Assembly: GCA_903823115.1 (NCBI GenBank)
Contig: CAIJRN010000052.1
Span: 28,285-92,284, forward strand
Direction of reading: 5' to 3'
DNA length: 64,000 nt
DNA from: an uncultured cyanobacterium
GTDB taxonomy: Bacteria; Cyanobacteriota; Cyanobacteriia; PCC-6307; Cyanobiaceae
Shown here in pieces: positions 33,405 through 53,457 of the stretch; the first letter of the stretch is position 1, and each line of letters opens with the position of its first letter. A model generated the notes under the pieces. It was not told the DNA's origin. It searched no databases and saw only the letters and a list, made by a program, of their open reading frames with translations. The translations under genes were made by a program, and so were the position numbers.

Positions 33405-33752
33405 TCAGACCTGAAGCAGAGCTTCACAGCGCCGCTCCCAGTCCCGTTGACTGCCCAGAGCCGCCACCAGCAAGCGATCGCCAGGTTCCTCCCGCAGGCG
33501 CAGCTGCCATTGCCGGATCAGATCGGCCCGCTCCATCCAGACATCGAGCACGGTGCGCTGAATGGCCTCGCCATCCCAATCGCGACCCCGGGCGGTGTCG
33601 ACGGCCCAGGCGAGCAGATCATCGAGCTGAAAGGAGCGAAAGCCGGCGAAGGCGGGACCAGCGGCGGTGGCATCGGCTGTGCTGCTGCGCTGCTCCAGAT
33701 AGAACAACTGCAGGGGATCGGAAAGACCACAGAGCTGCAAGAGGTAAGTCAT
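33405..33752 (-). CDS. Hypothetical protein under a CIRCE-type operator
   Basis: A 115-aa protein from ATG 33752 (MTYLLQLCGLSDP). It has no membrane segment or recognisable motif and looks mostly helical ('FRSFQLDDLLAWAVDT', 'VWMERADLIRQWQLRLREEPGDRLLVAALGSQRDWERRCEALLQV'). It reads like a conserved cyanobacterial protein, but I cannot name a family. The longer ORF upstream runs through the operator and is not coding. The gene is preceded by a CIRCE-like inverted repeat about 95 bp upstream of the start codon, so it is probably repressed by HrcA and induced by heat. Confidence 0.75.
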   Translation of the reverse strand: MTYLLQLCGLSDPLQLFYLEQRSSTADATAAGPAFAGFRSFQLDDLLAWAVDTARGRDWDGEAIQRTVLDVWMERADLIRQWQLRLREEPGDRLLVAALGSQRDWERRCEALLQV

Positions 33753-33846
33753 GCGCCAACCCGCAGGGAACAACGACAGGCAACACCGTAAAGAATGCAC
33801 CGAGTCGCGGCGTCCACCGCGAACATTCCTTGAGGTGACTGATGTT

Positions 33847-33873
33847 CTGGCACTCACAATCCTTGAGTGCCAA
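33847..33873 (-). promoter_or_regulatory. CIRCE-type HrcA operator
   Basis: Read on the minus strand: ttggcactc, nine bases, gagtgccag. The CIRCE consensus is TTAGCACTC-N9-GAGTGCTAA; 15 of 18 arm positions match, the two hexamers GCACTC and GAGTGC are perfect, and the spacer is exactly 9 nt. It lies in the 160-bp gap between the convergent-side end of the glutamine-synthetase-like gene and the minus-strand 115-aa gene, the only gene it could control. HrcA/CIRCE normally represses groESL in cyanobacteria; dnaK in this same window shows no such site. Confidence 0.8.
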
Positions 33874-51362: not shown

Positions 51363-53270
51363 TCACTTGCTCTCGCTGAACTCGGCGTCGATGACGTCGT
51401 CGGCATTGGCGTTGGCGGAACCGGCGGAAGAGCCATTGCCCCCGGGAGCAGCGGCGCCATCGGCGGCGGCGGCGTTCTGATACACAGCGGCACCGGCGGC
51501 ATAAAGAGCCTGTTGCAGAATTTCAAGCTCAGACTTCATCGTGTCGAAGTCTTCGCTCTCAATCGCCTGCTTGAGCTTGACCGAGGAGCTTTCCACCTTG
51601 GCCTTATCTTCGGCGCCCACCTTGTCGCCCAGCTCACCGAGCTGCTTCTCCGCTTGGTAGACGAGGGTTTCGGCCTGGTTCTTCAGGTCGATCTTCTCGC
51701 GCTTCTCCTTGTCGGCAGAGGCATTGGCCTCCGCATCCTTCACCATCTTGTCCACCTCGTTATCGCTGAGCGTGGAAGCTCCGGTGATCGAGATGCTCTG
51801 CTCCTTGCCGCTGCCCTTGTCCTTGGCGGTGACGCTGAGGATGCCGTTGGCGTCGATGTCGAAGATGACCTCGATCTGGGGCACACCCCGGGGGGACGGC
51901 GGGATGCCATCGAGGCGGAAGGTACCCAGGGATTTGTTATCGCTGGCCATTTCGCGCTCACCCTGGAGCACGTGAATCTCCACGTTCGTCTGGCCATCCA
52001 CCGCGGTGGAATACACCTCGGACTTCTTGGTGGGGATCGTGGTGTTGCGGGTGATCATCTTGGTCATCACGCCGCCGAGGGTTTCCACCCCGAGGGACAG
52101 GGGCGTGACATCGAGCAGCAGGATGTCCTTGACCTCTCCGGCCAGCACACCGCCCTGGATGGCGGCACCAACAGCCACCACTTCATCGGGGTTGACGGTC
52201 TGGTTGGGATCCTTGCCGGTGACCCGCTTGACCAGCTCGAGCACGGCCGGGATGCGGGTGGAACCACCCACCATCACGATCTCGTCGAGTTCGCTGGTGG
52301 AGAGCTTGGCGTCCTTGAGGGCCTGCTCCACCGGCACGCGGCAGCGATCAATCAGCTTGCTGGCCAGCTCCTCGAACTTCGCCCGGGTGAGGGTGAGATC
52401 GAGATGCTTGGGCCCTTCCGGCGTGGCCGTGATGAAGGGCAGGTTGATTTCGCTCTGGGTAGCGCTGGAGAGCTCGATCTTGGCTTTTTCAGCTGCCTCG
52501 GTGAGGCGCTGCAGGGCCTGTTTGTCCTGGCGCAGATCGATGCCTTCATTGCCCTTGAAGGTGGCAGCCAGGTAATCAACGATCACCTTGTCGAAGTCAT
52601 CGCCGCCCAGATGGGTATCGCCACTGGTGGAGAGCACCTCAAACACACCGTCGCCCACCTCCAGCACCGACACGTCGAACGTACCGCCGCCCAGATCGAA
52701 GACCAGGATGCGTTCGTTGCTCTTGCGATCCAGGCCGTAGGCCAGAGCTGCGGCCGTGGGCTCGTTGATGATGCGCAGCACTTCAAGGCCGGCGATCTTG
52801 CCAGCGTCTTTGGTGGCCTGGCGCTGGGAATCGTTGAAGTAGGCCGGCACCGTGATCACCGCCTGGGTGACCGTTTCACCGAGGTACTTGCCGGCATCTT
52901 CGGCGAGCTTGCGCAGCACTTCGGCCGAGATTTCCTCGGGGGCGAATTGCTTGTTGAGCACCGACGACTTGATCTTGACGTTGGCGCCGGCCTTCTCAAC
53001 CGTATAGCTCACCTCTTTCGACTCTTCGGTGACTTCATCGACGCGGCGGCCGATGAAGCGCTTCACCGAATAAAAGGTGTTCTCGGGATTCATGACCGCC
53101 TGGCGCTTGGCGATCTGACCGACCAGCTTGTCCTGGTTCTTGGTGTAGGCCACCACCGAGGGGGTCGTGCGGAACCCTTCGGCGTTGGCGATCACCGTGG
53201 GCTTGCCGCCCTCCATGACGGCGACGCAACTGTTCGTCGTGCCGAGGTCAATACCGACAACCTTACCCAT
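51363..53270 (-). CDS. dnaK: Chaperone DnaK (Hsp70)
   Basis: A 635-aa Hsp70 with '[18 protein letters not shown]' at the start, '[24 protein letters not shown]', '[19 protein letters not shown]', '[14 protein letters not shown]', the linker '[19 protein letters not shown]' and a C-terminal lid ending in a Gly/Ala/Asn-rich tail and '[10 protein letters not shown]'. It folds client proteins with DnaJ and GrpE. Cyanobacteria have several dnaK genes; this one resembles the general DnaK2 type by its ending. No CIRCE is present upstream; the 187 bp to divergent aroE should hold both promoters. A caggag ribosome site precedes the ATG. Confidence 0.98.
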
Positions 53271-53457
53271 GGGTTCCCAACTCCTGGTGTGAATGGAATC
53301 TGACTGGGTGCATCTTCAGCAGTGGCCCTGCGCCAAGGCGAGGGGTGGTTCCCGAACCGTTGCCGTACCTCCTGAGGGGCATAACCCTGTCTGCGCCTAC
53401 GGTCTGGGAGAAGTGAACGGCCTTTGTCCCGCCTCGATCCGCCCCGCTCGCCGCCGT

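Follow-up and report, generated by a model that had tools for sequence, protein, structure and literature searches.

A CIRCE operator conserved upstream of a small cyanobacterial gene points to a probable third member of the HrcA chaperonin circuit

The gene for a conserved cyanobacterial protein of 115 amino acids very probably belongs to the chaperonin control circuit as a third member that has been overlooked, since the CIRCE element in front of it is kept before its relatives in at least ten families. In all likelihood, the gene belongs to the HrcA/CIRCE regulon, and it is predicted to be repressed by HrcA. The comparison of genomes establishes the site itself, its conservation, its symmetry under change, the presence of hrcA, and the make-up of the regulon. 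The features of the locus, which lies in the 64-kb stretch of DNA analysed as a whole (the window), are given in Table 1.

Table 1. Features of the 115-aa gene and its upstream region (positions in the window)
Feature	Position	Strand	Sequence or remark	Basis
115-aa ORF, conserved cyanobacterial protein	33405..33752	(-)	ATG at 33752, stop included	Orthologues; codon-change pattern
Likely -10 hexamer, predicted	33785..33790	(-)	TACGGT (TANNNT)	Exactly 20 nt past second repeat
Second inverted repeat	33811..33825	(-)	TGTTCGCGGTGGACG; genus consensus TGTTC-N5-GAACA	Kept in 30 of 31 same-genus sequences
CIRCE, predicted HrcA operator	33847..33873	(-)	TTGGCACTC-AAGGATTGT-GAGTGCCAG	Kept 5' of orthologues

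The window was scanned for the pattern TTAGCACTC-N9-GAGTGCTAA, allowing up to three mismatches. A single site was obtained, and 100 dinucleotide shuffles yielded none. Read on the minus strand, the element is TTGGCACTCAAGGATTGTGAGTGCCAG; its arms, TTGGCACTC-N9-GAGTGCCAG, match the consensus at 15 of 18 positions (three mismatches), and the spacer is exactly 9 nt, as the preliminary description had claimed. The same scan bore out the claim that dnaK, located in the same window at 51363-53315 on the minus strand (HSP70, PF00012, E = 1e-263), has no CIRCE. An Rfam search of the region returned no RNA family.

Conservation of the inverted repeat upstream of orthologues, on which the preliminary description had let its proposal depend, was surveyed by scanning 350 nt 5' of each orthologue, with shuffled upstream sequences and downstream regions as controls. 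CIRCE was found in none of 2720 shuffled upstream regions and in none of the downstream regions. In the same genus, 31 loci had enough upstream sequence (one further locus had too little and was left out). The element was present in 28 of them, with up to three mismatches in 22 and with four or five in 6; three loci (L009, L028, and L032) had none. Outside the genus, sites with up to three mismatches occurred within the same family (g31 and g32) and in nine others, namely f2, f4, f15, f19, f22, f24, f29, f32, and f37, so that the element precedes orthologues in ten cyanobacterial families overall. Among named Nostocales loci, 79 of 80 had CIRCE at this threshold, the remaining locus having just 167 nt of upstream sequence. 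Some Nostocales loci carry two or three sites 5' of the gene, and the distance from CIRCE to the ATG in Nostocaceae is most often 133-140 nt. Two or three copies upstream of the 115-aa gene were seen at G267 (L115), L175, L200, L208, and L217, among others.

The changes within the element follow its symmetry. In the 28 sites of the genus, arm position 2 is T-A in 16 and C-G in 11, arm position 3 is A-T in 14 and G-C in 12, and the spacer displays no symmetry. Symmetric changes in the arms around an asymmetric spacer are the pattern expected of a protein-binding palindrome. Both the core GCACTC/GAGTGC and the spacer length of 9 nt persist across families. A chance palindrome, a reading to which the three consensus mismatches and the three genus loci devoid of the site might be taken to point, is refuted by this comparison: with no occurrence in shuffles, conservation in ten families, and symmetric arm changes, its probability is negligible.

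Orthologues in f12, f25, f31, and f11, and likewise in most of f24, have no CIRCE with up to three mismatches in the 350 nt upstream. hrcA was found in the sampled gene-bearing genomes of f12, f25, f31, and f11. As site-less orthologues occur in many lineages despite hrcA, membership in the regulon is not universal, and the gene may have been overlooked because the orthologues of some lineages lack the element.

The genes upstream of the 115-aa gene vary by lineage and include a glutamine synthetase-like or a DAHP synthase gene in tandem, a divergent gene for an EamA transporter, and a phosphorylase gene in tandem. Since the neighbours change between lineages, CIRCE goes with the 115-aa gene. 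It is conceivable that the element is real but serves a neighbouring gene, or represents a terminator or structural repeat, with the 115-aa gene as a bystander. The window CIRCE begins 40 nt past the end of a glutamine synthetase-like gene, and in Nostocaceae, L039 (f15), and L041 (f19) the site is located between divergent genes and could act on both. However, the neighbours are often arranged in tandem, and CIRCE remains 5' of the 115-aa gene as they change. Furthermore, no T-run was seen in the sequence 3' of the window repeat, and a terminator does not need the core and the 9-nt spacer that are kept across families. We therefore consider a bystander role of the 115-aa gene very unlikely.

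One hrcA gene, whose presence had been left to be checked, occurs in the source genome (PF01628, E = 7.3e-31, passing the cut-off). Genome-wide, this genome has two CIRCE sites with up to three mismatches, at groESL and at the 115-aa gene. The groESL element lies 112 nt 5' of the groES ATG, similar to the 94 nt between the end of CIRCE and the ATG of the 115-aa ORF. A second groEL of this genome has no CIRCE within five mismatches in the surrounding stretch. The perfect core GCACTC-N9-GAGTGC occurs once in the source genome, at the site 5' of the 115-aa gene, and in several genomes of the genus the second CIRCE site is that of groESL. Extra core matches in genomes of the genus (L252 and L256) are not located before groE genes, form poor full-length CIRCEs, and were taken as chance occurrences. 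In addition, a genome-wide scan with up to two mismatches was run on 12 genomes from four families that had been selected for bearing the site. CIRCE was found at groESL, at a lone groEL (groEL2), and at the 115-aa gene, and nowhere else; in one of these genomes, three copies were present at the 115-aa gene. This agrees with the very small regulon that had been claimed, and the 115-aa gene is the only non-groE member found in the genomes scanned.

In the portions of the cyanobacterial literature covered here, as distinct from regulon databases, the genes named with CIRCE are groESL and groEL2. The 115-aa gene has the operator and the 9-nt spacer in common with this groESL1/groEL2 regulon, and hrcA is encoded in the same genome. 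In contrast to these chaperone genes, it is a non-chaperone gene. In the source genome, a perfect K-box, GTTCGGTCACCCGAAC, identified by what we take to be the K-box consensus, is located at L140:1457-1472, 28 nt 5' of the groESL CIRCE, whereas no K-box was found at the 115-aa gene.

Among the genomes sampled from the window's family, the 15 that lack hrcA are without exception also devoid of the 115-aa gene; of the 16 genomes with hrcA, 8 lack it. A separate observation was made in G171 (a single contig of 3.8 Mb from f32; L054, L232, and L247), which gave no hrcA match and yet has CIRCE at groESL, groEL, and the 115-aa gene.

The upstream region of the gene in this genus differs from that of the groESL1/groEL2 regulon by an additional inverted repeat. 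In 30 of 31 genus sequences, TGTTC-N5-GAACA (with zero to two mismatches) is followed exactly 20 nt downstream by TANNNT. The distance between CIRCE and this repeat is mostly 20-21 nt; it is 41 nt in L019 and L024, where CIRCE is displaced upstream by about 20 nt (two helical turns) and the spacing between the repeat and the -10 is unchanged. L009 has neither the repeat/TANNNT module nor CIRCE, and in L028 and L032 the repeat and TANNNT are present and CIRCE is absent. Exact copies of TGTTC-N4-TGAACA are present elsewhere in genomes of the genus. The conserved -10 suggests that transcription starts downstream of CIRCE. If TANNNT is indeed the -10, the start in this genus would follow CIRCE at a distance of about 70-95 nt. 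By comparison, a published study places the transcription start of Synechocystis groES inside CIRCE (PMC2662882), whereas at the 115-aa gene CIRCE would lie upstream of the predicted core promoter.

This arrangement could mean that HrcA binds CIRCE but only modulates expression from upstream, the main control being exerted by another regulator at TGTTC-N5-GAACA. The centre of the repeat would be near -40 of the start, a position fitting a class II activator, and both the fixed distance to TANNNT and its preservation where CIRCE has shifted (L019 and L024) are in line with such a regulator. However, CIRCE remains conserved beyond the genus, where the second repeat is weak or missing, and transcription could also start inside CIRCE, as it does at Synechocystis groES. 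Main control by a second regulator thus appears rather unlikely, and we favor repression by HrcA at CIRCE.

Orthologues of the 115-aa protein were identified by profile matches in 110 of 242 sampled genomes, across Cyanobacteriia. A search of 194 genomes sampled from the phylum, for which the share of other classes is not given, yielded 60 matches, all of them in Cyanobacteriia; the family is accordingly restricted to this class within the samples searched. The gene is nearly always present in one copy per genome. Compared with each of five relatives, synonymous codon changes exceed nonsynonymous ones, and differences are enriched at the third position. Outside the window's family, identity drops to about 20-30%, with a glycine, several tryptophans, and an L-D pair retained.

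The protein is neither GroES nor HSP20. No Pfam or NCBIfam model, including those of GroES and known chaperone families, matched it over the cut-off, and no sequence relative was found in the PDB. Across 44 family members, no Pfam family matched more than two; these matches, each limited to one or two members, were not considered credible, and neither was AAA_25 (E = 0.19), which is under its own cut-off. An AlphaFold model (pLDDT 89.8) consists of strand-helix-strand-three helices-strand-helix. With this confident model as query, Foldseek found no match at E ≤ 0.001 among PDB entries or viral models. A second model, of 14 sequences from outside the window's family, had a pLDDT of 43.6 and was left out of the analysis. 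A helix-turn-helix or antitoxin assignment (phrog_1381, E = 0.008-0.03; YbaQ, PDB 2eby, E = 0.05) was rejected because these weak hits lack significance; for the window protein, no PHROG match was obtained.

Based on the sequence comparisons, HrcA is expected to bind the element, and the gene is expected to be induced by heat. In unstressed cells, CIRCE-bound HrcA would repress the 115-aa gene. Heat or other stress that occupies GroEL would lead to loss of HrcA activity, and the gene would then be switched on along with groESL. The product, predicted to be a small soluble alpha/beta protein, may act with or alongside the chaperonins as a cofactor, adaptor, or client-handling factor. Like GroES-like small accessory proteins, it is small, predicted to be soluble, and predicted to be co-induced with GroEL. 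We propose a chaperonin-linked role tentatively, on the basis of the regulation of the gene. A direct partnership with the chaperonins is more doubtful. Equally speculative is a cyanobacteria-specific chaperonin partner (a cofactor, an adaptor, or a modulator of HrcA/GroEL feedback) whose supply would be tied to GroEL load via HrcA and whose fold would be absent from solved structures.

Regulation by HrcA reports the availability of GroEL, and cyanobacteria possess two GroELs with different roles. The occurrence of one non-chaperone gene in this circuit in the 12 genomes scanned points to a protein that is needed when chaperonin capacity is short. As a co-regulated partner, it would be a concrete candidate to test.
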